Below, piece after piece: positions 21,674 through 51,912 of a DNA stretch of 64,000 bases (position 1 is the stretch's first letter; every line of letters begins with the position of its first letter). The position numbers were made by a program, and so were the translations under genes. The notes under the pieces were generated by a model. It did not search any database. It was not told where the DNA came from and saw nothing but the letters and a program-made list of their open reading frames with translations. Source of the stretch: Vreelandella subglaciescola (GTDB lineage Bacteria > Pseudomonadota > Gammaproteobacteria > Pseudomonadales > Halomonadaceae); assembly GCF_900142895.1 (NCBI RefSeq), contig NZ_LT670847.1, positions 2,480,001 to 2,544,000 on the forward strand. Reading direction: 5' to 3'.

Positions 21674-22246
21674 ATGCCCAGTTTATCATCAAATGCGGCC
21701 GTACCACTGCTGGCCTGGCCCGATGAAAGGCTCGCCGGACTGGATAACGCCGCCCTTGAAGACGCCGCACGCACCCGCGTCACGGAGGCGCTTGAACGTG
21801 CCCGCGAGGTCTATCCGGGGCTGCCCGCGCCCGGCGTGTGGTTTGACCTGAAAGGCGCCTCGGCCGGGCAGGCGCACCTGGGGCGCGGCGGGCTGCGCTT
21901 TAACCCGGTGCTGCTGCGCGAAAATCGCGAGATCTTTTTTGCCGAGGTGATTCCCCACGAGCTGGCGCACTGGCTGGTGTTTCATCTGCAGGACGGGCCG
22001 CGCCTGAAGCCCCACGGGCGCGAATGGCAAGCGGTGATGCGCGAGCTGTTTGCGCTGGTGCCGCGCGTGACCCACCGGCTGGACGTGAGCCGCGCACGGC
22101 CGGCGCCGTACCGCTACCGCTGCCGATGCGGCGAGCATCATTTTACCCCTCAGCGCCACGCACAGCGGCAGAAAGGACGGCGTTACCGTTGTCGACAATG
22201 TGCTGATACCTTGGTCTATTGTGGCCGTGATGCCGCCCGAGAATAG
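21674..22246 (+). CDS. sprT: SprT family zinc metalloprotease
   Basis: A 190-residue protein with the zincin motif HELAH (in FFAEVIPHELAHWLVFHL) and a third ligand likely in KPHGREWQAVM. The C-terminus has a zinc ribbon: CRCGEHHF and CRQCADTLVYCG. This is the SprT/Spartan domain architecture. Eukaryotic Spartan cleaves DNA-protein crosslinks; the bacterial role is less clear. ATG 21674 has AAGGA eight bases upstream and is preferred over in-frame starts at 21632 and 21665. It stands alone upstream of acs1. Confidence 0.86.
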   Translation: MPSLSSNAAVPLLAWPDERLAGLDNAALEDAARTRVTEALERAREVYPGLPAPGVWFDLKGASAGQAHLGRGGLRFNPVLLRENREIFFAEVIPHELAHWLVFHLQDGPRLKPHGREWQAVMRELFALVPRVTHRLDVSRARPAPYRYRCRCGEHHFTPQRHAQRQKGRRYRCRQCADTLVYCGRDAARE

Positions 22247-22257
22247 TTTTAAATCAT

Positions 22258-22324
22258 TGTTATTTAAGTAAAAAATATCAATACCAAGGTCTAGGAGAAA
22301 GACCGTGGGGAAGAGCGCTATGCT
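22258..22324 (+). promoter_or_regulatory. acs1 promoter with candidate CrbR element
   Basis: TGTTATTT (22258-22265), then ACCAAGGTCT (22283-22292), then TATGCT (22319-22324), a likely -10 hexamer. The element ends 26 bases before the -10, where a class II activator would bind, and there is no good -35. The acs2 promoter has the same three blocks at the same spacing. ACCAANGTCT recurs upstream of the symporter operon. Confidence 0.6.
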
Positions 22325-22406: not shown

Positions 22407-24392
22407 ATGAGCGAACAACAACAGTCCCCGCATGCGCCACAGCAGCCCCACGTTTATCCGGTGCGCGACGCTATCGCTGCCAATGCCTGGGCCGACCAGC
22501 AACACTACGCGGCCATGTACCAGCGCTCGATAGACGATCCGGAAGGCTTCTGGGCCGAGCAGGCCAGGCGGCTTGACTGGATCAAGGCGCCGACCACCAT
22601 CAAGAACACCTCGTTTGATCGCGACAGCGTGGAGATTAGCTGGTTTGCCGACGGTGAGCTCAACGCCGCCGCCAACTGTCTGGATCGCCACCTGCAACAC
22701 CGCGGTGACCAGACCGCGATTATCTGGGAAGGCGACGACCCCGCCGACTCGCGCCACATTACCTACGCCGAGCTTTACCAGCGCACCAATCAGTTGGCCA
22801 ACGCGCTCAAAGCGCTGGGCATTGGCAAGGGCGACACCGTCACGCTGTACATGCCGATGATTCCCGAAGCGGCGGTGGCCATGCTGGCCTGCGCGCGTAT
22901 CGGCGCGGTGCACTCGGTGATTTTTGGCGGCTTCTCGCCCGACGCCATTGCCCAGCGGGTGAAAGGCGCGCAGTCCAGGCTGGTGATTACCGCCGATGAA
23001 TCCGTGCGCGGCGGCAAGCACGTGCCGCTCAAGGATAACGTCGATGCCGCCCTGACCCGCGAGGGCACCGAGGTGTGCGAAAACGTACTGGTGGTCCAGC
23101 GTACGGGCGGTGACATCGACTGGCACGCGGGCCGTGATGTCTGGTACCACGAGGTGGTCGAAAAACAGGGGCTTGAGTGCCCGGCGGAGGCGATGAACGC
23201 CGAAGATCCGCTGTTTATCCTGTATACCTCGGGCTCCACCGGCGCGCCCAAGGGCCTCAAGCACACCACCGGCGGTTATTTGACCTACGCCTCGCTGACC
23301 CACCACTACGTGTTTGATTACCACGCGGGCGAAGTGTTCTGGTGCACCGCCGATGTGGGCTGGGTGACCGGGCACAGTTACCTGATCTACGGCCCGTTGC
23401 TGAACGGGGCGACCACGCTGATGTTTGAAGGTGTGCCCACCTATCCGACTCACGGGCGCATGGGCGAAATCGTCGATAAGCATCAGGTCAACATCCTCTA
23501 TACCGCGCCCACCGCGGTACGCGCGCTGATGGCCCACGGCGATCGGGTGATGGATTCGAGCTCGCGCGAAAGCCTGCGACTGCTGGGTTCCGCAGGCGAG
23601 CCGATCAACCCCGAGGCCTGGGAGTGGTTCTATCGCGTGATCGGCAACGAGCGCTGCCCGATTGTGGATACCTGGTGGCAGACCGAAACGGGCGGCATCA
23701 TGATTGCCCCGCTGCCGGGCGCCACGCCGCTCAAGCCCGGCTCGGCGACAAGGCCGTTTTTCGGCATAAAGCCGGCGATCATGGACAGCGAAGGCCAGCA
23801 GCTTGAGGGCGAAGCCGAAGGCAATCTGGTGGTGCTGGATTCCTGGCCGGGGCAGGCGCGCTCGATCTGGGGTGACCACGAACGCTTTGTGAGCACCTAT
23901 TTCTCGACCTACGACGGCGTGTACTTCACCGGCGACGGCTGCCGCCGCGACGCCGACGGTGACTACTGGATCACCGGCCGGGTGGACGATGTGCTCAACG
24001 TGTCCGGCCACCGCATGGGTACTGCCGAAATCGAGTCGGCGCTGGTGGCCCACGAGGCGGTGGCTGAAGCGGCGGTGGTGGGCTACCCCCACGCGATCAA
24101 GGGCCAGGGCATCTACATCTACGTCACCCTGGGCGACGACGCGGCACCGTCTGAGGCGCTCAAAAAGGAGCTGGCTCAGTGCATGCGCCGTGATCTGGGG
24201 TCTATCGCCGTGCCGGATATCATTCAGTGGGCGCCGTCGCTGCCCAAGACCCGCTCGGGCAAGATCATGCGGCGCATTCTGCGCAAGATTGCCGCCAACG
24301 AATGCGATAGTCTGGGTGATACCAGCACGCTGGCCGACCCGAGCGTGGTCGACGAGCTGATCGAACAGCGCGAAATCCACAGCAGTAGATGA
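22407..24392 (+). CDS. acs: Acetyl-CoA synthetase, first copy
   Basis: AMP-forming acetate-CoA ligase, which activates acetate through acetyl-adenylate. The P-loop-like motif [11 protein letters not shown], the WWQTETGG adenylation motif, [10 protein letters not shown] and [13 protein letters not shown] hinge are intact. The acetylatable lysine lies in [15 protein letters not shown] near the C-terminus. ATG 22407 (MSEQQQS) with GGAGG upstream gives 661 residues; an in-frame start at 22344 lacks a ribosome site. A second, very similar gene follows 164 bases later with its own promoter. Regulation by CrbSR, whose genes are close by, is likely from family knowledge. Confidence 0.97.
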
Positions 24393-24404
24393 TAGTTAAC
24401 TACC

Positions 24405-24470
24405 TGTTATTTCAATGAAAAATGTTACTACCAATGTCTAACATAAAGGGTCGTGAGCGGGGTTTATGCT
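24405..24470 (+). promoter_or_regulatory. acs2 promoter with candidate CrbR element
   Basis: TGTTATTT (24405-24412), ACCAATGTCT (24430-24439) and TATGCT (24465-24470). The offset from TGTTATTT to ACCAA is 25 bases in both acs promoters, and the gap to TATGCT is 25 here against 26 in acs1. The element ends 118 bases before the acs2 ATG (115 in acs1). Confidence 0.6.
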
Positions 24471-24556
24471 AGGGTAAAAGAAGGCGGCCAACTATCGTCG
24501 CCTACGCCACTGGCGACATTTTATAAAGGCAGTGTACTTCCACGGAGAGGCAATCC

Positions 24557-26509
24557 ATGAGCGAACAACACCACGACGTCTATCCGGTGCGCGACGATAT
24601 CGCCGCCAATGCCTGGGCCGACAAAGCAGAGTACGCGGCCATGTATCAGCGCTCGATAGACGATCCGGAAGGCTTCTGGGCCGAGCAGGCCAAGCGGCTT
24701 GACTGGATCAAGGCGCCGACCAAAATCAAGAACACCTCGTTTGATCGCGATAACGTGGATATCCGCTGGTTTGAAGACGGCGAGCTCAACGTGGCGGCCA
24801 ACTGCCTGGATCGTCATCTGGAAATCCGTGGCGGCGACACCGCGATTATCTGGGAAGGCGACGATCCGGCCGAGTCGTGCCACATTACCTACGCCGAACT
24901 TTACGACCGCACCAATCAGCTGGCCAACGCGCTCAAGGAAATGGGCATTGGCAAGGGCGACACCGTCACGCTGTACATGCCGATGATTCCCGAAGCGGCG
25001 GTGGCAATGCTTGCCTGCGCGCGCATTGGCGCGGTGCACTCGGTGATTTTTGGCGGCTTCTCGCCCGACGCCATTGCTCAGCGGGTGATCGGCGCGCAGT
25101 CGAAACTGGTGATTACCGCCGATGAGTCCGTGCGCGGCGGCAAGCACGTGCCGCTCAAGGATAACGTCGATGCCGCCCTGACCCGCGAGGGCACCGAGGT
25201 GTGCGAAGAGGTGCTGGTGGTCAAGCGCACCGGCGGCGATATCGATTGGCACGAGGGCCGCGACGTCTGGTACCACGAGATGGTCGACAAGCAGGCGATG
25301 GCCTGCCCGGCAGAGGCGATGAACGCCGAAGATCCGCTGTTTATCCTGTATACCTCGGGCTCCACCGGCGCGCCCAAAGGCCTCAAACACACTACCGGCG
25401 GCTATCTGACCTACGCCGCGATGACCCACCAGTACGTGTTCGATTACCACGAAGGCGACGTGTACTGGTGCACCGCCGATGTGGGCTGGGTGACCGGGCA
25501 CAGCTATATCGTCTACGGGCCGCTGGCCAACGGCGCGACCACGCTGATGTTTGAAGGCGTGCCGACCTACCCGACCCACGGGCGCATGGGCGAGATCGTC
25601 GACAAGCACAAGGTCAACATCCTTTACACCGCACCCACTGCCATCCGTGCGTTCATGGCCCACGGCGACAGCGTCATGGACTCAAGCTCGCGGGACAGCC
25701 TGCGCCTGCTGGGCACGGTAGGCGAGCCGATCAACCCCGAAGCCTGGGAGTGGTTCTACCGCGTGATGGGCAAGAAACGCTGCCCGATCGTGGATACCTG
25801 GTGGCAGACCGAAAACGGCGGCATCATGATTGCCCCGCTGCCCGGGGCGACGCCGCTCAAGCCCGGCTCGGCCACCAAGCCGTTTTTCGGGGTGCAGCCG
25901 GCGATCATGGACAGCGAAGGCCAGCAGCTGGAAGGCGAGGCCGAAGGCAATCTGGTGATTCTGGATTCCTGGCCGGGGCAGGCGCGCTCGATCTGGGGCG
26001 ACCACGCGCGTTTCGTGAGCACCTATTTCTCGACCTACGACGGCGTCTACTTCACCGGTGATGGCTGCCGCCGCGACGCCGACGGCGACTACTGGATCAC
26101 CGGCCGGGTAGACGACGTGCTCAACATCTCGGGTCACCGCATGGGCACTGCCGAAATCGAGTCGGCGATGGTGGCCCACGCGGCGGTGGCCGAGGCCGCC
26201 GTGGTGGGTTACCCCCACGACATCAAGGGTCAGGGTATCTACATCTACGTCACCCTGGGCGACGACGTAGAGCCGACCGACGAACTCAAGAAAGAGCTGA
26301 CCCAGCAGGTGCGTAAAGAAATTGGCCCGATTGCCTCGCCGGATATCATCCAGTGGGCGCCATCGCTGCCCAAAACTCGCTCGGGCAAGATCATGCGGCG
26401 CATTCTGCGCAAGATTGCCGCCAACGAGTGCGACGGCCTGGGTGATACCAGTACGCTGGCCGACCCGAGCGTGGTGGACGAGTTGATCGAGCACCGCGTC
26501 AACCGCTAA
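24557..26509 (+). CDS. acs: Acetyl-CoA synthetase, second copy
   Basis: A 650-residue paralogue of the preceding gene, similar along its whole length but with scattered substitutions (for example WWQTENGG in place of WWQTETGG, and a shorter N-terminus lacking the proline/glutamine stretch). [24 protein letters not shown] and [12 protein letters not shown] are intact, so it should be active on acetate or a near relative such as propionate. The change of threonine to asparagine in the adenylation motif could affect substrate or kinetics. ATG 24557 has GGAGAGG upstream. A terminator follows. Confidence 0.96.
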
Positions 26510-26773: not shown

Positions 26774-27436
26774 ATGGCTATTGCCCATAAGTTCATCGTC
26801 GCCGATGACCACCCGCTGTTTCGCGCGGCGCTCACCCAGGCGCTGCGTCAGCTCGCACCGCAGGCGGATATCGTCGAGGCGGACACCATGGAAGCCACCA
26901 AGGACGTGGTGAATCGCCACCCCGATGCCGACCTGGTGCTGCTGGATTTACATATGCCGGGCGCCAACGGTTTCTCGGGGCTGATTCAGCTGCGCGGGCA
27001 GATGCCCGATATTCCGGTAGCGGTTATTTCCGGCAGCGACGAGCCCTACGTGGTGCGCCGGGCGCTCGACTACGGGGCGTCGGGATTCATTCCGAAATCG
27101 TCGTCGCTGACGCTGATCGCCGAGGCGGTGGGCGAAATCCTTGACGGCGAAGTCTGGCTGCCCGAAGCGCTTTCCGGCGTGCTCGACGACACCAACGAAG
27201 AAGAGGCGCGCTTTGCCGAGGCCATCGCCTCGCTCACGCCCCAGCAGTTTCGCGTGCTCAACATGCTCAACGAAGGCCTGTTGAACAAGCAGATCGCCTA
27301 TGAACTGAGCGTGTCCGAGGCCACTATCAAGGCGCACGTGACCGCCATTTTGCGCAAGCTCGGCGTGCATTCGCGCACCCAGGCGGTCATCGCCGCGAAA
27401 AAGCTCGAGGTCGATCCGCCCAAGGTCGAATCCTAG
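26774..27436 (+). CDS. crbR: LuxR-type response regulator, CrbR/ErdR-like
   Basis: A 220-residue NarL/LuxR-family regulator: receiver domain with acidic pocket (VADDHPLFRAAL), phospho-acceptor Asp in LVLLDLHMPGANGF and conserved PKSS lysine, then a C-terminal HTH (LTPQQFRVLNMLNEGLLNKQIAYELSVSEATIKAHV). CrbR (also ErdR/AgmR-like) activates acs in Vibrio and Pseudomonas when its partner kinase CrbS signals. The genes for acs1, acs2, this regulator and a CrbS-type kinase lie together, which supports that role. ATG 26774 has GGAGGAG upstream. Its TAG shares CTAG with the stop of crbS on the opposite strand. Confidence 0.88.
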   Translation: MAIAHKFIVADDHPLFRAALTQALRQLAPQADIVEADTMEATKDVVNRHPDADLVLLDLHMPGANGFSGLIQLRGQMPDIPVAVISGSDEPYVVRRALDYGASGFIPKSSSLTLIAEAVGEILDGEVWLPEALSGVLDDTNEEEARFAEAIASLTPQQFRVLNMLNEGLLNKQIAYELSVSEATIKAHVTAILRKLGVHSRTQAVIAAKKLEVDPPKVES

Positions 27437-30400
27437 GCGCCGTTACGCGCGCCGCGGCTGGCCTGCAGGGTACGGCTCAGCAGGGCGCGTAGCGCCGCCG
27501 GGCGCACCGGTTTGAGCAGCAGGTGATGGCCGGCGCGTTTGATCTGTTCGGCCACCTCTTCGCTGCGGTCGGCGGTAATCACAATGCTGGGCACGTCGCC
27601 CTGGAGGCGTTCGGCCAGCGCTTCCAGCGCCATCAGGCCGGTGACTTCGTTATCCAGATGGTAGTCGGCCAGAATGGCGTCGGGGTCGCCTTCCATGTTG
27701 CGCAAGATAGACTTGGCACCGCCGATGCTGGTGGCGGTAAAGACCTCGCACCCCCAGCCGCCGAGCATGGCGGCCATGCCCTCGAGAATCAGCGACTCGT
27801 TATCGATGCAGACGATGCGCGTGCCGGCCAGCTTGTTGCCGGCGCTGCGTTTGGGCTCTGCCGGCTGGTCGGCGATTACTTGTGCGGCTACCGTCGGCAC
27901 GCTGACGCTAAAGACCGTGCCGTAGCCTTCCCAGGAGCGCACCTTCAGCGGGTGATCCAGCACTCGGCTCATGCGCTCGGCGATGGACAGGCCCAGCCCC
28001 AGACCTTTTTCACTCTCGCGGTGGCGCGAGGCCTGATCCAAGCGGCGAAACTCCTGAAAAATCTCCGTCTGTTTGGCCTCGGGAATCCCCGGGCCGGTAT
28101 CCCACACTTCGATGCGCAGCCGGTCTCCCGAGCGCCGGCAGCCCAGCAGCACGCGACCCTCCTGGGTGTAGCGCAGCGCGTTGGAAAGGAAGTTCTGAAT
28201 GATGCGGCGCAGCATTTGCGAATCCGAATCCACCCACTGCTCGGTAGGCACTACGACCAGATCCAATCCCCGGTCTTCGGCCATGACGTCGAATTCAGCG
28301 CGCAGCGGGCGCAAAATGTCGGCCAGCGCAAAGTGGCTGCGCCGAGGCGTCAGGGCGCCGGCGTCGAGCTTGGAGATATCCAGCAGCGTGCCCAGCAGCT
28401 CTTCGGCCGCCTGCAGCGAGTTATCAATATGGCCGATGGTGCGCTGGGCGTTGGGAGTGTTTTCGTCCTGCATCAGCGCCGAGGTAAACAGTCGCGCGGC
28501 ATTGAGCGGCTGCAGCAGATCGTGGCTGGCCGCGGCCAGAAAGCGTGTTTTTGATGTGTTGGCGTCTTCGGCCAGCTGCTTGGCCTGACGCAGTGCCTGA
28601 GTTCGCTCGTGTACCCGCTCCTCAAGGGTTTCGTTGGTTTCCTTGAGGGCGACCTCGGCCTGGCGCCGCTCGGTAATGTCTTGATACAGCGCGAAAAAGC
28701 CCAGAATAGCGTGGGCATCGTCAAAGTGCGGCGTATAGGTGACGAGCATGTGGCGCAGCTCGCCGGCCTGCGGCATGGATACTTCAAAACTCACCCGCTC
28801 GCCGTTAAGGGTCTGCTCGATCCAGCCGGCGCGTTCATGCGCGCGGTCGGCCGGCATGACATCGGCAAAGCGCCGGCCGATGACCGCGTGGCGGTCGACC
28901 CCGAAGGCCTGTTCGTAGGCGCGGTTGGTAAACAGGTAGCGGCAGTCCTTGTCGAAATAGGCAATCAGCGCCGGCACGTTGTCGGTATAGATGCGGATGT
29001 TGTTTTCCGAGCGGATCAGCGCCTCTTCGATGCGCTTTTGCGGGCTGATATCCTGATAGGTATACACAAAGCCGCCGCCGGGCATGGGGTTGCCCTGAAC
29101 CTCCAGCACGCTGCCGTCCTGGCGGTAGCGTACGTAGCGGTGGGGTTGGCCTTCGCGAATGTTATCCAGCAGCAGTTCGACGTGCTCCTCCGGGTCGCCG
29201 GGGCCGTACTCGCCGCTGTGGGCGTTATAGCGGAAGATGCGGTCAATCGGCGCGCCCACGCGGATCAGATGATCGGGGAAACGAAACAGCTCCAGATAGC
29301 GCTGGTTCCACACCACCAGCCGCAGGTGCTGGTCGACCACGCTGATACCCTGAGTGATATTTTCGATGGTGGCCTGCAGCAGCGCGCGGTTGAACTCGAG
29401 CACCTGGGAGGCTTCATCGACAATCGAAATGACGTCGGAAATGCCGATGCCGCGCCCCTGCAGCGCCGAGTTGACCACGATGCGCGCCGATGAAGCGCCC
29501 AGCACCGAGGCCAGAAAGCGCTCGGTAAACTGGATCACGTCGATGGAGGCGCGGGCGTCGTCGGCCAGCGGCGTACCGTTGCGCCGGGCGTAGTCGCCAA
29601 AGGCGCGCGCCACCTGGCCTTCGCCCAGAAAGCGCTCGCACAGCACTTTCAGGTCGCCCACCGTGGTGGCGCCCATCCACGGGCGATTGATCGAGGTCTG
29701 GCGGGTTTCGACGCTGTCGACAAACAGCGAGGCCTGAATGCGCTCGACGACCCGCTGGGAGCTCAGCTGCGAGATAAAAATATAGCAGAACAGGTTCACC
29801 CCGAGGGAGAGCATGACGCCGTGGGTAAAGGGGTCGCCAAGGTGCAGGCCAAACAGCGACGTGGGCGAGAGCCAGGCCACTCCCAGCGGGCCGTTCGTGA
29901 CCCAGCCGCCGGGCAGCACGCCGGCATTGACCAGCGCCGGCCCCAGCAGGCTGTAGGCCCAGATGGCAAAGCCCGCGTTCAGCCCGACCGTCACGCCCAG
30001 CCAGTTGCCGCGTTTCCAGTAAAGCCCGCCGATCAGCGCCGGGGCAAACTGGGCGGCGGCGGCAAACGAGAGCATGCCGATGGAGGCCAGTGAGCTGAAC
30101 TCGGCGAGCATACGGTAAAAGCCGTAGGCCAGCGCGAGCACGGCAATAATGGTAAAACGCCTGACGCGCAGCACCAGCCGCCCGTAGTCCCGCGCCTGGG
30201 TATCAAACCAGCGCAGGCGAAACAGCGCGGGGATGACGATTTCGTTGGAAATCATGATCGACACCGCCACGGCAGCCACAATCACCATGCTGGTCGAGGC
30301 GGAAAAGCCGCCGATAAACGTCAGCAGCGTTAGCCATTCGTGGCCCGAGGCCATGGAGAGCGCGAGGACATACGCATCCGGCTCAACGCCACTGTCGCCG

Positions 30401-31317
30401 AACAGCCACAGCCCCGCGGCGGCCAGCGGCATGACGAAAAAGCCCACGGCAAGCAGGTACAGCGGAAACAGCCAGCGTGCCCGCTGGGCATCGTCGGGGT
30501 GGATGTTTTCGACCACGGTGACGTGAAACTGGCGCGGCAGGCAGAAAATCGCCAGCATGGCGAGCAGCGTCTGCGCCCAGAAGCCGTGGGCGAAATCCTG
30601 CTCGGTCAGCTGACGTTCGAGATCGAGCTGGCTGTCGGCGTAATGCATCAGCTCGCCGAGGCCGTCGAACATGCCCCATGTCACCACGGCGCCGAGAATG
30701 ATGAAGGCGGCGAGCTTGACCAGCGACTCGAAGGCCACGGCATGAATCAGGCCTTCATGGTGTTCGGTGGCATCGGTATGGCGGGTGCCGAATAAAATCG
30801 CGAACAGCGCCATGACGCAGGCGATGTAAAAGGCGGCGTCGCCAAACAGCGGCGCGCGCGGCCCGCCGGCTTCGCCGGTCAGAATGCTGAAGGAAGACGC
30901 CACGGCTTTCAGCTGCAGGGCGATATAGGGCAGCGTGCCGACCAGTGCGATCAGGCTGGCGAACACCGCCAGTGACTGCGCCTTGCCGTAGCGCGAGGCA
31001 ATAAAATCGGCAATCGAGGTGACGTTCTGGTGCTTGGCCACGCGGATCATCTTGGCGAGTATCGGCCAGAACAGCAGGAAGGTCAGGATGGGGCCGACAA
31101 AAATACTGGCGAATGACCAGCCCGACGTCGCCGCCTGCCCCACGGCACCGTAAAACGTCCACGAGGTGCAGTAAATCGCCAGCGCCAGGCTGTAAATCAG
31201 CGGCCGGCGGCGGCTGGCGCCGTGAGTATGCGCCCGGCGGTCGCCGTACCAGGCAATGCCGAACAGTATCGCAATATACCCAAGCGATACCGCGATAAGT
31301 AGCCCCGCGTAAAACAT
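27433..31317 (-). CDS. crbS: Transporter-fused hybrid histidine kinase, CrbS/MxtR-like
   Basis: A 1294-residue membrane sensor. Residues 1 to about 500 form a sodium:solute symporter (SLC5) domain with a dozen or so membrane helices. After a linker, PAS-like regions lie around 645-760 and 772-890 (GISVVDQHLRLVVWNQRYLEL; ALIAYFDKDCRYLFTNRAYEQ), followed by a coiled coil, HisKA with H932 in ASHDLLQPLNAAR, HATPase with FLSNALRYTQ, DTGPGIPE and GLGLGLSIAERM, and a C-terminal receiver domain with likely phospho-acceptor D1218 (ILADYHLD). This architecture defines CrbS/MxtR kinases that control acetate use through CrbR. ATG 31317 is preceded by GGGAG. It is convergent with crbR, sharing stop bases. 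Confidence 0.9.
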   Translation of the reverse strand: MFYAGLLIAVSLGYIAILFGIAWYGDRRAHTHGASRRRPLIYSLALAIYCTSWTFYGAVGQAATSGWSFASIFVGPILTFLLFWPILAKMIRVAKHQNVTSIADFIASRYGKAQSLAVFASLIALVGTLPYIALQLKAVASSFSILTGEAGGPRAPLFGDAAFYIACVMALFAILFGTRHTDATEHHEGLIHAVAFESLVKLAAFIILGAVVTWGMFDGLGELMHYADSQLDLERQLTEQDFAHGFWAQTLLAMLAIFCLPRQFHVTVVENIHPDDAQRARWLFPLYLLAVGFFVMPLAAAGLWLFGDSGVEPDAYVLALSMASGHEWLTLLTFIGGFSASTSMVIVAAVAVSIMISNEIVIPALFRLRWFDTQARDYGRLVLRVRRFTIIAVLALAYGFYRMLAEFSSLASIGMLSFAAAAQFAPALIGGLYWKRGNWLGVTVGLNAGFAIWAYSLLGPALVNAGVLPGGWVTNGPLGVAWLSPTSLFGLHLGDPFTHGVMLSLGVNLFCYIFISQLSSQRVVERIQASLFVDSVETRQTSINRPWMGATTVGDLKVLCERFLGEGQVARAFGDYARRNGTPLADDARASIDVIQFTERFLASVLGASSARIVVNSALQGRGIGISDVISIVDEASQVLEFNRALLQATIENITQGISVVDQHLRLVVWNQRYLELFRFPDHLIRVGAPIDRIFRYNAHSGEYGPGDPEEHVELLLDNIREGQPHRYVRYRQDGSVLEVQGNPMPGGGFVYTYQDISPQKRIEEALIRSENNIRIYTDNVPALIAYFDKDCRYLFTNRAYEQAFGVDRHAVIGRRFADVMPADRAHERAGWIEQTLNGERVSFEVSMPQAGELRHMLVTYTPHFDDAHAILGFFALYQDITERRQAEVALKETNETLEERVHERTQALRQAKQLAEDANTSKTRFLAAASHDLLQPLNAARLFTSALMQDENTPNAQRTIGHIDNSLQAAEELLGTLLDISKLDAGALTPRRSHFALADILRPLRAEFDVMAEDRGLDLVVVPTEQWVDSDSQMLRRIIQNFLSNALRYTQEGRVLLGCRRSGDRLRIEVWDTGPGIPEAKQTEIFQEFRRLDQASRHRESEKGLGLGLSIAERMSRVLDHPLKVRSWEGYGTVFSVSVPTVAAQVIADQPAEPKRSAGNKLAGTRIVCIDNESLILEGMAAMLGGWGCEVFTATSIGGAKSILRNMEGDPDAILADYHLDNEVTGLMALEALAERLQGDVPSIVITADRSEEVAEQIKRAGHHLLLKPVRPAALRALLSRTLQASRGARNGA

Positions 31318-31404
31318 CCAACGCTCCCGCCGTGGCGCAAAAACGCCCATTCTAGGCGAAATGGGCGTGGGCGTCAGGCCGGAGTGGCGGGTTGGAGGGC
31401 GGGT

Positions 31405-32016: not shown

Positions 32017-33819
32017 TCAGTGACTCATGTGTGTCGCACTGCCAGCCCCTTTCGGGTAGCGCACGCTTTCGACCAGGTCCTGAATGGCCTGCGGCGGTGC
32101 GGCGGTCACGTTGGACACCACGAAGGCAACCGCGAAGTTCATGATCGCCCCCAGCGCACCGAAGGACTGCGGCGAGATGCCCATGACCCAGTTATCCGGC
32201 GTGTTCGCCAGCATGTTGGTGCCGGGGATAAAGAACCAGCCAAGGTAGGTGAAGATATACAGCAGCGTGGTCAAAAGCCCGGTCAGCATGCCCGCGACGG
32301 CACCGTGGTTGTTGATGCGCTTGGAGAAGATACCCATCATCAACACCGGGAACAGCGACGCACCGGCAATACCGAAGGCCAGCGCCACGGTTTGTGCGGC
32401 AAACCCCGGCGGATTGAGCCCCAGATAGGTCGCGAGCAGAATCGCCCCGCCCATGGAGATCCGTGCGGCCAGCATTTCGCCTTTTTCGGAGATGCGCGGG
32501 TTGATCGTGTTCTTGATCAGGTCGTGGCTGATGGCCGAGGAAATCGCCAGCAGCAGCCCGGCCGCGGTAGACAGCGCTGCGGCAACCCCGCCGGCGGCAA
32601 TCAGGCCGATGACCCAGGGCGGCAAGTTGGCAATCTCGGGGTTGGCGAGTACCAGGATGTCGTTGTTGACGGAAAGCTCGTTACCTTCCCAGCCACGCTC
32701 GGTGGCAGTGCCGGTAAAGGCTTCGTTAGTGTCGTTGTACAGCTGGATGCGGTCGTCGCCGTTCTTGTCCTCGAAGGTGATCAGGCCGGTGTGTTCCCAG
32801 GCGCGGATCCAGTTGGGGCGGTCTGCGTAAAGGATGGGGCTGCTGGCTGCGGCGTCGTAGTCTTCGACCTGCTCGCTCATGTCGGGGTAGATAGTGGTCA
32901 TCAGGTTCAGGCGCGCCATGGAGCCGACGGCCGGTGCCGTGACGTACAGCAGCGCGATAAACACCAGTGCCCAGCCCGCCGACCAGCGTGCATCAGCCAC
33001 CTTCGGCACGGTGAAAAAGCGGATGATGACGTGGGGCAGCCCGGCGGTACCCACCATCAGCGAGAGCGTGAACAGCACCATGTTGAGCTTGTTGTCCACG
33101 TCGCCGGTGTAGGCGTTGAAACCCAGCGCGGTCACCACCTGATCCAGCTTGTCGAGCAGCGGAATGCCGGACTCGACGTGTGTGCCGAACATGCCGAACA
33201 TGGGGATCGGGTTACCGGTCAGCTGCATGGCGATGAACACGGCCGGAATGGTGTAGGCAATAATCAGCACGATGTACTGGGCGACCTGGGTATAGGTAAT
33301 GCCCTTCATGCCGCCAAATACCGCGTACAGGAACACGATCAGCGCGGCAATCCAGATGCCCGCGGTATTGGACACTTCCAGAAAGCGCGAGAAAGCCACG
33401 CCGGCACCGGTCATCTGGCCGATGACGTACGTCACCGAGGCGGTGATCAAACAGACCACGGCGATCAGCCGCGCGGTGCTGCTGTAGAAGCGATCGCCGA
33501 TAAAGGCCGGTACGGTAAACTTGCCGAACTTGCGCAGGTAGGGCGCGAGCAGCATGGCAAGCAGCACGTAGCCGCCGGTCCAGCCCATCAGGTAGGTCGA
33601 GTTGGCGTAGCCGCCGGCGGCCAGCAGACCCGCCATGGAGATGAACGAGGCCGCCGACATCCAGTCGGCGGCCGTCGCCATGCCGTTGGTAATGGGATGC
33701 ACGCCGCCGCCGGCGACGTAGAAGTCCTTGGTGGAGCCGGCGCGCGCCCAGATGGCGATGCCGATGTAGAGCGCAAACGACGCGCCAACAAACAGTATGT
33801 TGATCGTAAACTGGTCCAT
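32017..33819 (-). CDS. Sodium:solute symporter large subunit, ActP-like
   Basis: A 600-residue SLC5/SSSF transporter with about 13 membrane helices. Typical motifs are AADWMSAASFISMAGLLAAGGY near the N-terminus and GGVAAALSTAAGLLLAISSAISHDL later. A hydrophilic insert of about 80 residues (from IYPDMSEQVEDYD to LSVNNDILVLANPE) marks the VC_2705 subgroup that works with a small DUF4212 subunit. By family and by the neighbouring acs and crbSR genes, acetate or another short-chain monocarboxylate is the expected substrate, co-transported with sodium. That is inference; E. coli ActP is a more distant relative. Seven bases separate it from the small-subunit gene. Confidence 0.88.
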   Translation of the reverse strand: MDQFTINILFVGASFALYIGIAIWARAGSTKDFYVAGGGVHPITNGMATAADWMSAASFISMAGLLAAGGYANSTYLMGWTGGYVLLAMLLAPYLRKFGKFTVPAFIGDRFYSSTARLIAVVCLITASVTYVIGQMTGAGVAFSRFLEVSNTAGIWIAALIVFLYAVFGGMKGITYTQVAQYIVLIIAYTIPAVFIAMQLTGNPIPMFGMFGTHVESGIPLLDKLDQVVTALGFNAYTGDVDNKLNMVLFTLSLMVGTAGLPHVIIRFFTVPKVADARWSAGWALVFIALLYVTAPAVGSMARLNLMTTIYPDMSEQVEDYDAAASSPILYADRPNWIRAWEHTGLITFEDKNGDDRIQLYNDTNEAFTGTATERGWEGNELSVNNDILVLANPEIANLPPWVIGLIAAGGVAAALSTAAGLLLAISSAISHDLIKNTINPRISEKGEMLAARISMGGAILLATYLGLNPPGFAAQTVALAFGIAGASLFPVLMMGIFSKRINNHGAVAGMLTGLLTTLLYIFTYLGWFFIPGTNMLANTPDNWVMGISPQSFGALGAIMNFAVAFVVSNVTAAPPQAIQDLVESVRYPKGAGSATHMSH

Positions 33820-33825
33820 GCTGGC

Positions 33826-34086
33826 TTACTCCCCGAGGTCGTATTTTTTGTCGAGCTGATTCATCTTCCAGGCGTAGAAGAAGGTCAGCGCGATAAACGT
33901 CAGGATTGAGCCTTGCTGGGCAAACCAGAAGCCAAGGTCAGTCCCGCCGACGGGAATACCCGCTAAAAGCGGGCGAAACAGGATGGCACAGCCGTACGAC
34001 ACGAAGGCCCAGACGATCAGGCAGCCGAAAATGGTGCGTACGTTGGCTTTCCAGTATGCAGCAGCGTTGGAAGTATCATCTGCCAT
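33826..34086 (-). CDS. DUF4212 protein, symporter small subunit
   Basis: An 86-residue inner-membrane protein of the DUF4212 family (VC_2704-like). Two membrane helices are clear: IFGCLIVWAFVSYGCAILF and FWFAQQGSILTFIALTFFYAW, followed by a charged tail (KMNQLDKKYDLGE). Family members are found directly upstream of the large sodium:solute symporter subunit, as here, and the pair is co-transcribed. Some homologues carry the name YjcH-like. ATG 34086 has GGAGAG upstream on the minus strand. Confidence 0.87.
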   Translation of the reverse strand: MADDTSNAAAYWKANVRTIFGCLIVWAFVSYGCAILFRPLLAGIPVGGTDLGFWFAQQGSILTFIALTFFYAWKMNQLDKKYDLGE

Positions 34087-34257
34087 GGCGTTGCTCTCCG
34101 TTTGTGATTGTTAAGGTTTGGAGATTGCGGTGAGTGAACAGTGCCAGGGTTGTGCGGCCGTGCCGTTCAGAAGCACAGTTTTTAACCGGGCGAAGACGGC
34201 GCGACAACCCTGCATTACGTGCTTTCATACTGGCCAAAAAACGTCAAAAAGAAATCC

Positions 34258-34283
34258 AGACTTTGGTCTTTAAACCAACGTCT
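34258..34283. promoter_or_regulatory. Inverted pair of ACCAANGTCT elements between divergent genes
   Basis: AGACTTTGGT (34258-34267) and ACCAACGTCT (34274-34283) are inverted arms, matching at nine of ten positions, six bases apart. Read on the minus strand the first arm is ACCAAAGTCT, the same core as in both acs promoters, followed 28 bases on by TATGAA. The site lies 172 bases from the DUF4212 start and 136 bases from the DUF294 start. Nothing else is evident in this 332-base gap. Confidence 0.6.
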
Positions 34284-34418
34284 TGACTGCTGATGGCGGG
34301 CTGGAACGGTCGCTGTGAGGATAGCCGTGGCGAATGGCTATGACGATAGTATAGGTGTCGGTACGGGCACAGACGTCGATACTCTGGGGACGCCGTTTCC
34401 CTTTTTGCCGAGGTATGC

Positions 34419-36233
34419 ATGGTCGATGTCGAGCTTTCCCAACCTCCCTTTACGCTGCTCGACGCGGCGGGCCGTGAACATGCGCGCCGCGGCATGGATA
34501 TTGCCTACTTCGACCGCGACGAAATCATTCTGGATACCGGGCAGGCCGGCGAGTCGCTGTTTTTGATCCATCAGGGTGAGGTCGCCGAAGTGGACCCGAC
34601 GCTGCCGCAGGCCACCGCGCGTATCGGCCTTTACACGGCGGGTGACCTGTTCGGCGCCATCAGCATGATCAACGGCCAGAGCCGCTATCGCTTTATCGCC
34701 GAGCAGGACTGCCTGTGCTATCTGTTTCCCAAGGTGCTGTTCCAGCAGCTGTGTCGGGCGTATCCCGAGTTTGACGGTTTCTTCCGCCAGTCACTGGCGC
34801 ACAAGGCGCGCCGGCTGATGGAAAAGCGTGCCGAAGGCGGCGTGACCATGGCCGGGTTCATGCTGGCGCAGGTTAGCGCCTGCATGCGCGCCCCCCAGCG
34901 CATCAAGGCCGATGCCGATATCGCCAGCGCGGTGACGCAGCTTAATGAAAGCCACGCCGATAGCCTGCTGGTCGAGCGGGAGGGCGCGTGGGGCATGCTG
35001 ACCAAGACCGATCTGCTCAACGCGCTGGTGGTTGACGGATTGCCTCAGCAAAGCCCGGTCGGTGATATTGCCCGCTACCGTCTGATCACGGTAACGCCCG
35101 GCCAGTACCTGTTCGAGGCGCTGGTGATGATGACGCGGCATAAGGTCTCGCGGGTGGTGGTGCTTGACGGGCAGGCGCCGGTGGGCGTGGTCGAGCTGAC
35201 CGACGTGCTGAGCTACTTTTCCAGCCGCAGCTATGTGGTGAGCCTGCAGATCGAGCAGGCGGACGACCTGCATTCGCTGGCCGCGGCCAGCCGGCGAACG
35301 CCGGAGCTGGTCAACGCGCTGATGGCGCAAGGCGTCAAACTGCGCTTTGCCATGGAGCTGTTGGCCGCGCTGAACGGCCGTATTATCCACAAGGCCTGGC
35401 AGCTGTGCGTCGCACCGCGCTACCACAATGACAGCTGCCTGATAGTGATGGGCAGCGAAGGGCGCGGCGAACAGATCCTGAAAACCGATCAGGACAACGG
35501 CCTGATTCTCGACGATGCGCTGGAATGGCCCGAGGTCGGCAGCGCCATGCGCCAACTGACCGATACGCTGGTCACGCTTGGCTACCCGCCGTGCCCCGGC
35601 AACATCATGGTCTCCAACCCCGAATGGACGGGGAGCGTCAGCCAGTGGCAGGCGCGTATTGCCAGTTGGGCCGCCGCCCGGGACGGCGACAGCCTGATGA
35701 AGCTGGCCATCATGCTGGATGCCCACGCGGTCGCGGGTAACCCGTCGCTCCTCGAGCGCGTGCGCCAGACGCTGTTCGAGCACTGCGCCAGCGATGACCT
35801 GCTGCTGTCCTACTTTGCCCGGGCAGCGCTGCGTTTTTCGACGCCGTTGACGCTGTTTGGCTCGCTGAAAAAACCCCAGCACGGCATTGATATCAAAAAA
35901 GGCGGCATTTTTCCCATTGTCCACGGCGTGCGCACCATGGCGCTTGAGCGCTGTATTACCGCCACGTCAACCTTTGAGCGGCTGGAGGCGCTGGTGGTAG
36001 ACGGCCGCCTGAAGCGCCGCTTTGCCGATGACGTTGGCGAGGCGCTGGCGCTGTTTACCGAGCTGCGGCTCAAACGCCAGCTGGAAGTGCCCACGGCTGA
36101 CGGCCAAAGCCGCGATCGCGTGGTGGTGCAGACGCTGTCGTCGCTGGAGCGCGACCTGCTGCGCGAGGCGCTGCATATCGTCAAGGATCTCAAGCAGCGC
36201 CTGTCGCACCGCTATCACCTGGAGTATTCCTGA
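34419..36233 (+). CDS. cNMP-binding/CBS/DUF294 nucleotidyltransferase-like protein
   Basis: A 604-residue cytoplasmic protein with three parts: a cyclic-nucleotide-binding-like domain (residues 10-130, FDRDEIILDTGQAGESLFLIHQGEV), a pair of CBS motifs (about 150-280, HADSLLVEREGAWGMLTKTDLL and KVSRVVVLDGQAPVGVVELTDVL), and a DUF294 domain with the nucleotidyltransferase signature GSEGRGEQ plus TDQDNGLI (about 345-365), then a helical substrate-binding tail. Homologues are signal-responsive nucleotidyltransferases of unknown target. In related bacteria they often sit beside acetate symporter genes and are reported in the CrbR regulon. Here the gene is divergent from that operon across a shared palindromic site. 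Confidence 0.88.
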   Translation: MVDVELSQPPFTLLDAAGREHARRGMDIAYFDRDEIILDTGQAGESLFLIHQGEVAEVDPTLPQATARIGLYTAGDLFGAISMINGQSRYRFIAEQDCLCYLFPKVLFQQLCRAYPEFDGFFRQSLAHKARRLMEKRAEGGVTMAGFMLAQVSACMRAPQRIKADADIASAVTQLNESHADSLLVEREGAWGMLTKTDLLNALVVDGLPQQSPVGDIARYRLITVTPGQYLFEALVMMTRHKVSRVVVLDGQAPVGVVELTDVLSYFSSRSYVVSLQIEQADDLHSLAAASRRTPELVNALMAQGVKLRFAMELLAALNGRIIHKAWQLCVAPRYHNDSCLIVMGSEGRGEQILKTDQDNGLILDDALEWPEVGSAMRQLTDTLVTLGYPPCPGNIMVSNPEWTGSVSQWQARIASWAAARDGDSLMKLAIMLDAHAVAGNPSLLERVRQTLFEHCASDDLLLSYFARAALRFSTPLTLFGSLKKPQHGIDIKKGGIFPIVHGVRTMALERCITATSTFERLEALVVDGRLKRRFADDVGEALALFTELRLKRQLEVPTADGQSRDRVVVQTLSSLERDLLREALHIVKDLKQRLSHRYHLEYS

Positions 36234-36365
36234 AGCGAGATGAAGGGGGAGTTGGTGGGGTAGCGCCGGGTATTGTTACAATGGCCGCTATCAGAGCGGC
36301 GCTTTCCTGTTCTATCACAGCGCTGCTTTCCCCATTTTCTTCACTATCGACCGCGCAGACTTCCT

Positions 36366-37286
36366 ATGCCGCATTCTGACCCCGTGCAATCCCTTGATCC
36401 CGCTGCGTACGCTTCCGCGCCCGAGGCCACCGCTGCCAATGATGCCGCGACCACTGAGGCGCAGCACAAACGCGACTTCAACAAGCTGCAAAAACGTCTG
36501 CGGCGCCAGACCGGCAACGCCGTGATTGACTACCGCATGATCGAGGAAGGCGACAAGATCATGGTGTGCCTGTCAGGCGGCAAGGACAGCTACACGATGC
36601 TGGACATGCTGCGCAGCCTGCAGCGCAACGCGCCGATCAGCTTTTCGCTAGTGGCGGTGAATCTTGACCAGAAACAGCCGGGCTTTCCCGAGCACGTGCT
36701 GCCCGAATATCTGGATAAACTGGGCGTTGATTACCATATCCTCGAGCGCGATACCTACTCGGTGGTCAAGGAGAAAACCCCTGAGGGTAAAACCACCTGC
36801 GCGCTGTGTTCGCGCCTGCGCCGCGGCTCGCTTTACGGCTTTGCCGAGGAGATCGGCGCGACCAAGGTAGCGCTTGGCCACCACCGCGAAGACATTCTGG
36901 AAACGCTTTTCCTGAACATGTTTTTCGGCGGCAGCTTAAAGGCGATGCCGCCCAAGCTCTTGTCCGACGACGCTAAAAATATCGTCATTCGCCCGCTGGC
37001 CTACTGCAAAGAGGCCGATATTGCCGAGTTTTCCCGTCAGATGGCGTATCCGATCATCCCCTGCAACCTGTGCGGCTCGCAGCCCAACATGCAGCGCCAG
37101 AACGTCAAGGCGATGCTCGACGATTGGGATAAAAACCATCCCGGCCGGCTGGAAAGCATGTTCAAGGCGGTGACCAACGTCGCCCCGTCCCAGCTTGCCG
37201 ACCGCGAGCAGTTTGATTTTGAAAACCTTGAAGCCAAGCAGGAAGCGGCGCTCTCCGAGCGCATTCAGGCGTTCAACGTAGGCTGA
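36366..37286 (+). CDS. ttcA: tRNA 2-thiocytidine(32) synthetase TtcA
   Basis: TtcA thiolates cytidine 32 of some tRNAs using ATP and a [4Fe-4S] cluster. The PP-loop is [15 protein letters not shown], and cluster cysteines lie in [12 protein letters not shown] and [29 protein letters not shown] is another signature. From ATG 36366 (MPHSDPVQ) it is 306 residues, including a poorly conserved 40-residue N-terminal tail; an upstream start at 36273 is unlikely. The ribosome site is weak. It ends six bases from the convergent fnr/anr gene, a neighbour pair that both depend on iron-sulfur clusters. Confidence 0.95.
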
Positions 37287-50003: not shown

Positions 50004-50073
50004 CTTAAAGTAAGCCGTCATAAAAGTCTTGATAAGATCATACCAATGTCTTTAATCAAGCAAGCAAATTCCA

Positions 50074-50679: not shown

Positions 50680-51912
50680 TTATACCAAGGTATCATCCAC
50701 CACTTCAATCCAGTGGCGTACCGGCGTGCGGTTGGCGCCGGCAAGATGGGTCTGACAGCCGATGTTGGCCGTCACGATCATCTCGGGGTTGCCCGCTTCC
50801 AGAGCATTGAGCTTGTTATCGCGCAGCTGGGTGGCAAGTTCGGGCTGGGTAATGGAATACGTGCCCGCCGAACCGCAGCACAGATGGGCATCTTGCACCG
50901 CCGTGAGCGAGAAGCCAAGGGTTGTCAGCACGTTTTCTACCGCGCCGCCAAGCCGTTGCGCGTGCTGCAGGGTACACGGGCATTGAAACGCCAGGCGCTT
51001 GCTTTCCTTGAGGTTTAGCGTCTCAAGCGGTGCCTCCCGCAGCATTTCGACGATATCCCGTGTCATCTCGCTGATGGTCTGCGCCCGGGCGGCGTAGGCC
51101 GGATCGTCCTTGAGCATCTCGCCGTAGTCCTTGACGAAGGCGCCGCAGCCGCTGGCGGTCTGTACGATCGCCTCGGCGCCTTGCTCCACGTAGGGCCACC
51201 AGGCATCGATATTGGCGCGGATGCGCTCCAGAGCCTGCTGCTGGGCGTTCAGGTGAAAATCAATGGCACCACAGCAGCCCGCTTCAGGCACCGGCGTTAC
51301 GCTGATGCCCAGCCGGTCGAGCACGCGCGCGGTGGCGGCATTGGTGTTGGGCGAGAGCCCTGGCTGTACGCAGCCTTCGAGCATCAGCACGCGTCGCGGG
51401 TGACGATTTGCCGCGGGCCGAATACCGGCATTAACGGGTGCAGGCGGCATTTTGCTGCGCAGCGGCGCGGGCACCAGCGGTTTGAACGTTTGGCCAAGTT
51501 TGAGCAGCGTTTGGAACCGAGCCGGGTTGACCAGCATCTTGCGCAGCCCGTAGCGGGTGAGGCGTTCGGCTGCCGGGCGCGGGGCGCGGCGCTCTATTTC
51601 CGCGCGGCCGATGTTCAACAGCTTGTGATACTCCACGCCGGAAGGGCAGGTGGTTTCACAGTTCAGGCAGGTCAGGCAGCGATCCAGATGCAGGCGCGTC
51701 TCGGCGGTGACGTTAGTGTCATCGTCGGGGCTTTCGAGCAGCTCTTTCATCAGGTAGATGCGCCCGCGGGGGCCATCTCGCTCGTCGCCCAGCAGCTGGT
51801 AGGTGGGGCAGGTGGCGTTGCAAAAGCCGCAGTGCACGCAGGCGCGCAGCACCTGCTCGGCTTCCTGAATATGGGGTTTCTGGCGATCGGCATCGCTAAA
51901 GTGCGTTTGCAT
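50680..51912 (-). CDS. glcF: Glycolate oxidase iron-sulfur subunit GlcF
   Basis: GlcF carries electrons from the flavin subunits to the membrane. The 410-residue protein has two 4Fe-4S motifs (CVHCGFCNATCPTYQLLGDE and CLTCLNCETTCPSGVEY) and two CCG domains with the characteristic double cysteines (PEAGCCGAIDFH and AHLCCGSAGTYS). ATG 51912 has GGAGG upstream. The gene starts 14 bases after glcE. Confidence 0.96.
   Translation of the reverse strand: MQTHFSDADRQKPHIQEAEQVLRACVHCGFCNATCPTYQLLGDERDGPRGRIYLMKELLESPDDDTNVTAETRLHLDRCLTCLNCETTCPSGVEYHKLLNIGRAEIERRAPRPAAERLTRYGLRKMLVNPARFQTLLKLGQTFKPLVPAPLRSKMPPAPVNAGIRPAANRHPRRVLMLEGCVQPGLSPNTNAATARVLDRLGISVTPVPEAGCCGAIDFHLNAQQQALERIRANIDAWWPYVEQGAEAIVQTASGCGAFVKDYGEMLKDDPAYAARAQTISEMTRDIVEMLREAPLETLNLKESKRLAFQCPCTLQHAQRLGGAVENVLTTLGFSLTAVQDAHLCCGSAGTYSITQPELATQLRDNKLNALEAGNPEMIVTANIGCQTHLAGANRTPVRHWIEVVDDTLV

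Follow-up and report, generated by a model that had tools for sequence, protein, structure and literature searches.

The window, by which we mean the whole 64-kb stretch of DNA that was analysed, carries an operon for a sodium/solute symporter on the minus strand and, diverging from it, a gene for a DUF294 protein on the plus strand. The operon encodes a DUF4212 small subunit of 86 aa (33826..34086; PF13937 at E 2e-32, and TIGR03647) and a VC_2705-family sodium/solute symporter of 600 aa (32017..33819; TIGR03648 at 817 bits with a cut-off of 321). By sequence the transporter itself is assigned to the VC_2705 family, and we infer that it takes up acetate. The divergent gene (34419..36233) encodes a protein of 604 aa with cNMP-binding, CBS, DUF294 and DUF294_C domains (PF00027, PF00571, PF03445 and PF10335), which are the domain kinds given in the published description of Pflu5625. 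An RNase_T-type exonuclease gene lies 3' of the DUF294 gene in two related loci, L033 (5857-6483) and L060, and is absent at 36234-36370 of the window; the window's genome has just one distant match to it, in a 698-aa frame, and in loci L003 and L005 the exonuclease position is taken by a protein without a Pfam match.

Farther upstream in the window there are two acetyl-CoA synthetase (acs) genes in tandem (22407-26509) that are 88 percent identical, the second copy being at 24557..26509 on the plus strand (TIGR02188, 1003 bits), and in all 58 other family genomes that matched there was one acs each. Just downstream of acs is a gene for a CrbR/ErdR-like LuxR-type response regulator (26774..27436, plus strand, with the ATG at 26774 chosen as start; Response_reg and GerE domains), and it is followed on the minus strand by a gene for a CrbS-like hybrid histidine kinase (27433..31350; PAS, HisKA, HATPase_c and Response_reg in Pfam). 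The window thus encodes both a CrbS-like and a CrbR-like protein, as a regulon with the ACTU motif requires. The long hydrophobic N-terminal part of the kinase would be a symporter domain; Pfam gave no symporter match for the protein. Against the ErdR model NF041830 the response regulator scored 264 bits (E 7e-79), which is under the 390-bit cut-off, and because of this the name CrbR/ErdR rests on resemblance and context. It is the single ErdR-like regulator that the window's genome has at E 1e-25 or better. All 61 sampled genomes of the family contain a CrbR match with an identity of 72 percent or more, and 33 of the 61 have a second regulator with 32-47 percent identity. In two genomes, G073 and G074, the CrbR match is present and an acs match is absent at E 1e-200.

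The sequence AGACTTTGGT-CTTTAA-ACCAACGTCT is found at 34258-34283, in the 332-bp gap between the symporter operon and the DUF294 gene. A first-pass annotation of this DNA had recorded the arms and the spacer, their identity to an element at acs and their position in a divergent control region, and all three were borne out: the sequence is as written, both arms match the acs element exactly, and the two transcription units flank the pair. The arrangement is far beyond chance, in that an inverted pair with up to 3 mismatches occurs a single time in the window and did not occur in 100 shuffles. The word ACCAANGTCT has 5 copies in the 64-kb window when 0.25 are expected, a number reached in 0 of 100 shuffles; genome-wide it occurs 15 times exactly, compared to 5 for a reversed control, and a degenerate ACTU pattern occurs 24 times, compared to 18 for its control. 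What did not hold is the reading of the two arms as halves of one element with one half for each operon. The left arm is in itself a whole near-palindrome, AGAC-N4-GTCT (34258-34269), and so is the right arm, AAAC-N4-GTCT (34272-34283). The ACTU motif of the CrbS-CrbR system, as described in Pseudomonas fluorescens SBW25 (Sepulveda and Lupas 2017, PMC5715377), is itself near-palindromic, a 16-17 bp imperfect inverted repeat with an AC-N4-GTC core, examples being the published 17-bp repeats of PFLU5314, TACTACCAAAGTCTAAT, and of acs, TACTACCATCGTCGAAT. Both arms, extended to 16 bp, have this repeat and this core, and because the motif is near-palindromic each arm is, judged by its sequence, a complete ACTU inverted repeat, the motif of CrbR/ErdR.

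The ACTU sites were scored with a symmetric position weight matrix of 16 columns and a threshold of p 1e-4. The matrix was built on 26 sites, 22 from acs of relatives and 4 from P. fluorescens, and the region between the symporter operon and DUF294 was outside this training set. Site 1 (34256..34271, minus strand), upstream of the DUF4212-symporter operon, scored 13.7 (p ~8e-6) and site 2 (34270..34285, plus strand) scored 12.5 (p ~1.7e-5). These two sites abut each other; their centres are 14 bp apart and their 16-mers have 2 bp in common. Upstream of the DUF294 gene is a third site, site 3 (34339..34354, plus strand), which the first-pass annotation had overlooked. It has GTA instead of GTC in its core and scored 8.5, and its p of 1.3e-4 is slightly short of the threshold. 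Among all matches in the 64 kb, sites 1 and 2 rank 6th and 7th and site 3 ranks 13th. At p 1e-4 the whole window has 10 matches compared to 6.4 expected, which means that the matrix alone is unspecific and that comparative support is needed.

This support was sought in the best 80 of 140 relatives that were found via the DUF294 protein. In 79 of these 80 the DUF4212-symporter operon is divergent from the DUF294 gene, and locus L025, which has no symporter on its contig, is outside all counts of 79 loci. The 79 relatives are close kin and their counts are not independent. In the 79 gaps, which amount to 51 kb, there are 282 matches to the matrix compared to 18.5 after mononucleotide shuffling, while the rest of the same loci has 56 matches in 701 kb, and at least two ACTU matches are present in 77 of the 79 gaps. 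A counterpart of site 1 is present in every one of the 79, and in 59 it is the exact 16-mer CCAGACTTTGGTATCA. On the symporter side, site 1 is adjoined by a conserved promoter-like block. When 58 genomes were searched at the DNA level, 17 matched in addition to the window's own, the promoter-like block was matched in 12 of the 17, and 11 of these 12 alignments end inside site 1, the one of G009 continuing into site 2. TATGAA (34224..34229, minus strand), 28 nt beyond the GTCT in site 1, would be the -10-like hexamer of the symporter operon, and TAT is found 28, 29 and 30 nt from site 1 in 12, 46 and 27, respectively, of the 79 relatives. On the DUF294 side of site 1, 38 relatives, L005 among them, have an adjoining block TGAG.AaA.t.tGATt that is not an ACTU site.

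On the DUF294 side, a putative -10-like hexamer, GATACT (34378..34383, plus strand), lies 25 nt beyond the GTAT in site 3, and it is common to the window and to three related loci, L001 (V. subglaciescola), L002 (V. jeotgali) and G009, in all of which site 3 has an aligned counterpart. When the ACTU match nearest to the DUF294 gene was taken in each of the 79 relatives, TA was found at hexamer positions 3-4 at an offset of 25 in 43 of them, compared to 1-6 relatives for each of the other offsets from 18 to 33; when any ACTU match was allowed, TA was found at offset 25 in 62 of the 79 and at the other offsets between 15 and 39 in 8-38. The spacing resembles that of acs, where TATGCT was located 25, 26 and 27 nt from the ACTU site in 14, 10 and 5 of 30 regions, respectively, and was absent in one. 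With a rough -10 matrix the peak was at 27, two bases further, and the register is thus uncertain by about 2 bp. Sites 1 and 3 are accordingly 28 and 25 nt from -10-like hexamers, a placement made from sequence on hexamers that are weak, and a scan of the gap with the sigma-70 consensus found no promoter. In P. fluorescens SBW25 the motif lies just upstream of an RpoD promoter, and in acs it is at -52 to -36, immediately upstream of the promoter (PMC5715377). Site 2 has no -10-like hexamer at 23-30 nt in either direction. The arrangement of site and hexamer is thus found at site 3 and is missing at site 2, and this leaves the assignment of one arm to each operon unsupported. It is site 3 and not site 2 that most likely serves DUF294, which corrects the first-pass annotation, where the right arm had been given this role. 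Between the putative promoter at site 3 and the start of DUF294 there are two overlapping terminator-like stems (34386-34401), when 0.6 are expected, and these are possibly an attenuator or possibly nothing.

Conservation in relatives, which had been proposed as a check on the arms, separated them: site 1 is kept in all 79, as given above, and counterparts of site 2 were found only in L001, L002 and G009. These counterparts have the same 14-bp spacing from site 1 and scores of 14.6 in L001, 14.6 in L002 and 10.9 in G009, and among the 79 named relatives L001 and L002 are the only ones with a match at +14, the next best score there being 1.3. The exact ACCAANGTCT is not kept in them, since the site 2 cores of all three end in GTAT and not in GTCT, and the DNA beyond site 2 is hardly alignable among the window, L001, L002 and G009. 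The distance to the DUF294-side site also varies in this clade, being 83 bp in the window and 62, 159 and 106 bp in the others, and the spacer is GC-rich (0.59-0.60), variable in length and without an element at its midpoint. From this comparison site 2 is a clade-specific addition. It is probably functional, and its most likely function would be that of an auxiliary site for the symporter promoter.

The reading that we prefer, to which we give a probability of roughly 0.8, is that the pair consists of two abutting CrbR ACTU sites, that phosphorylated CrbR activates the symporter operon through site 1 and DUF294 through site 3, and that site 2 is auxiliary. Phosphorylated CrbR would activate the symporter promoter by binding immediately upstream of it, at site 1, and would separately bind site 3 and activate DUF294. 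Site 2, which has no promoter of its own, would hold a second CrbR dimer beside the one on site 1 and in this way strengthen or tune site 1, and this would take place in a clade without the longer spacer, often with an IHF-like site, that most relatives have kept. On the same evidence acs, the symporter and DUF294 are likely to form one CrbR regulon. That these would be one regulon had been claimed from the sequence of the window, and this part stands; the regulon as such, however, has already been published for other bacteria.

Two 16-bp sites with 2 bp in common may not be occupied at the same time, and this leads to the alternative that site 2 competes with site 1, in which case hindrance between the dimers would set a threshold for the symporter or limit its expression at high levels of phosphorylated CrbR. 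In its favour are the overlap with centres 14 bp apart and the spacing that is kept exactly in four species. However, regulators of the NarL type can occupy adjacent sites at the same time as well, and we regard competition as unlikely, although it is the strongest of the alternatives to an auxiliary site 2. It is improbable that site 2 stands beside site 1 by chance and has no function. True, 77 of the 79 named relatives lack it, but in all four species of the clade a site above the p 1e-4 threshold stands at exactly +14 while the flanking DNA has diverged. We give even less credence to the reading of one inverted pair whose two arms each activate the operon they face. Both arms do match the acs element exactly and do sit between divergent genes, but the orientation of near-palindromic arms says little, no -10-like hexamer is found 23-30 nt from site 2, the DUF294 side has a better placed site at 34339, to which counterparts are known from relatives, and site 2 itself is missing from the relatives other than L001, L002 and G009. 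The weakest alternative, that some other LuxR-type regulator binds the sites in place of CrbR, draws on the facts that related regulators recognise inverted repeats and that a second one is encoded in 33 of 61 family genomes, but it is very unlikely given that the window's genome has one match at E 1e-25 or better and that the motif is CrbR-dependent in P. fluorescens (PMC5715377).

We return to the preferred reading of abutting CrbR sites and to the longer layout from which the clade departs. In the 79 relatives the nearest match beyond site 1 is at 110-116 bp in 65 and at 99-102 bp in 6, and the remaining distances, for which as for these counts no minimum of 90 bp was applied, are 14 (L001 and L002), 55, 141, 219 and 323 bp, with no further match in 2 loci. 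Helical phasing, judged by eye, gave no rule beyond the class of 110-116 bp and the smaller one of 99-102 bp. The table of spacers used the next site at a distance of 90 bp or more, and in L001 and L002 the last site; it omits L013 and L019, in which no second site exceeded the threshold. The identity of the spacers was calculated for successive 10-bp intervals between the block that adjoins site 1 and the next site. In the 114-bp class (14 loci) it was 0.25-0.52 but rose to 0.54 and 0.66 at 50-70 bp, and in the 112-bp class (19 loci) it was 0.34-0.55 but 0.61 and 0.59 at 50-70 bp. This conserved bump resembles the consensus of IHF, WATCAANNNNTTR. In a test of 75 loci, made without L001, L002, the window and G009, the exact consensus was found anywhere in the spacer in 10 compared to 0.8 after mononucleotide shuffling, and with up to 1 mismatch in 42 compared to 12.6. 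Its position is also fixed: with up to 1 mismatch it occurs at the midpoint offset of +58 on the plus strand in 25 of 77 loci, about a third, and at all other plus-strand offsets together 5 times, while the 24 matches on the minus strand are scattered with at most 6 per offset. A group of 38 loci has the midpoint consensus TATCAat...TTg and a mean information of 0.64 bits at 46-75, 0.24 at 76-110 and 0.76 at 16-45, the last being a further conserved block; in the other 39 loci no clear midpoint element was found. The window's own spacer has no WATCAANNNNTTR at the midpoint between its ACTU sites. With a GC content of 0.60, its best match is AACCAACGTCTTG, with 1 mismatch, at offset 17 and inside site 2.

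A similar layout is found upstream of acs. The first acs copy of the window has a distal ACTU site (22204..22219, plus strand, score 19.8), an IHF-like site (22250..22262, minus strand, 1 mismatch to WATCAANNNNTTR) at a position shared in the family, and a proximal ACTU site (22279..22294, plus strand, score 17.0) that is 75 bp from the distal one. The second copy, which has the 3' end of the first as its upstream DNA, is without the distal site and has a weak IHF-like site (24397..24409, minus strand, 2 mismatches) at the family-shared position and an ACTU site (24426..24441, plus strand, score 19.2) that is 25 nt from TATGCT. In the family, 23 of 48 acs regions have an IHF-like site with up to 1 mismatch on the minus strand at -29..-17 relative to the proximal ACTU site, and in 9 of the 48 it is exact, compared to 0.03 expected per offset and strand. 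The 48 regions include both copies of the window and exclude three of 51 (L190, L194 and L195) in which no site was above the threshold; in L187-L189, which were scored as misses among the 48, the proximal site was perhaps wrongly chosen. Of 29 closer relatives, 19 have a distal ACTU site at a distance of 74-75 bp upstream. None of 20 further relatives has one at this distance, and one of them, L203, has a match at 76 bp. Outside the family the IHF-like site was found in none of the 13 acs regions that have a matrix match, some of these matches being weak, the 13 coming from 28 acs regions that were the best-scoring loci of 53 matching genomes after one family member had been removed. A gene for the IHF alpha subunit is present in the window's genome above the curated cut-off.

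These regularities suggest, tentatively and with odds that we place below even, that the acetate regulon of the Halomonadaceae uses a CrbR-IHF-CrbR complex of fixed geometry and that the clade of the window has swapped the IHF-bent spacer for abutting CrbR sites. At the divergent region, CrbR sites about 113 bp apart would be folded by IHF bound at the midpoint, which would couple both promoters; at acs, the distal and proximal CrbR sites 75 bp apart would flank the IHF site; and in the clade of the window the contact bridged by protein would be replaced by direct contact of the regulators. The most economical reading of the comparison is that the clade has rearranged its regulator sites from a longer, perhaps IHF-bent layout to neighbouring CrbR sites. 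If IHF does play this part, divergent promoters that are coupled in two different ways can be compared across these related genomes.

The likeness to P. fluorescens SBW25 is in the inverted repeat, in the kind of regulator and in the classes of targets, which are acs, an acetate-type symporter operon and a PFLU5625-type protein. There, proteomics and reporters have identified acs, actP and PFLU5625 as targets of CrbR, the ACTU motif was found in 91 of 112 promoter regions of homologues of acs, actP, PFLU0110 and PFLU5625, and control by CrbR was shared, judged by the motif, in Vibrio and in 2 of 4 Shewanella strains; Table 3 of that paper contains no Halomonas (PMC5715377). The symporter partner differs, being of the DUF4212/VC_2705 type here and DUF485/ActP in P. 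fluorescens. The layout differs too, since for SBW25 one motif per promoter is described and the region from -62 to +1 is sufficient for acs (PMC5715377), whereas here there are abutting double sites and the relatives have several sites per region together with IHF-like sites. In P. putida KT2440, where the system is MxtR/ErdR, ErdR binds in vitro to the promoter of PP_0354, a CBS-domain protein in an operon with the RNase_T-family gene PP_0353, and deletion of PP_0354 caused no growth defect on acetate (PMC8402216, PMC9927547). This pair of genes is near glcB in P. putida and its homologues adjoin actP in P. aeruginosa PAO1 (PMC8402216, PMC9927547), whereas in the window the DUF294 gene is without the exonuclease and diverges from a symporter operon of the DUF4212 type. 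The P. putida acsA-I gene is expressed on acetate without having an ACTU motif and without being shifted by ErdR, and actP-I is bound by ErdR and not induced by acetate (PMC8402216, PMC9927547), so motif and regulation do not correspond one to one.

A known arrangement that resembles the proposed role of IHF is the nrfA/acsP1 region of E. coli, where likewise two divergent promoters, one of them of acs, are controlled by a NarL-type regulator and IHF, in a region where Fis is also involved (PMC5434802). There, however, IHF is displaced by NarL and NarP, and activation is mainly by FNR (PMC5434802), whereas in the Halomonadaceae two ACTU sites flank the IHF-like one. Two reviews that name both CrbR and IHF (PMC8871633, PMC10903459) contain, in their available portions, no link between the two, although PMC10903459 mentions IHF for ackA-pta and CrbS/R for ACS in the same sentence; in the accessible text of PMC5436829 a description of the motif or of a binding site was not found. 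Among the open PMC matches listed, none had Halomonas together with CrbR, ErdR, CrbS or MxtR, and in the accessible portions of the open PMC literature no description was found of an abutting ACTU pair or of a CrbR/IHF geometry. A CrbR regulon that includes a DUF294-type protein is thus already known in other Gammaproteobacteria, and it is the geometry that looks new. This work extends the acetate regulon to a family of halophiles, in which its promoters carry several regulator sites in a constrained geometry.

Of fifteen ACTU loci of the genome that were inspected, the strong ones outside the window have no clear promoter geometry and no adjoining acetate gene, and we do not propose a wider regulon. 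Near-perfect ACTU palindromes are present at 1547105 and 1045396 of the window's own genome (L087 and L164) with no obvious acetate gene adjoining them. Inside the window, the best matrix score belongs to an ACTU-like site (50680-50695) where a glcF-like gene has its 3' end, upstream of an HbpS/GlcG-like gene, and a second strong ACTU-like site (50038-50053) lies between a tRNA cluster and the end of the HbpS/GlcG-like gene; these two sites possibly reflect a link to glycolate or possibly chance.
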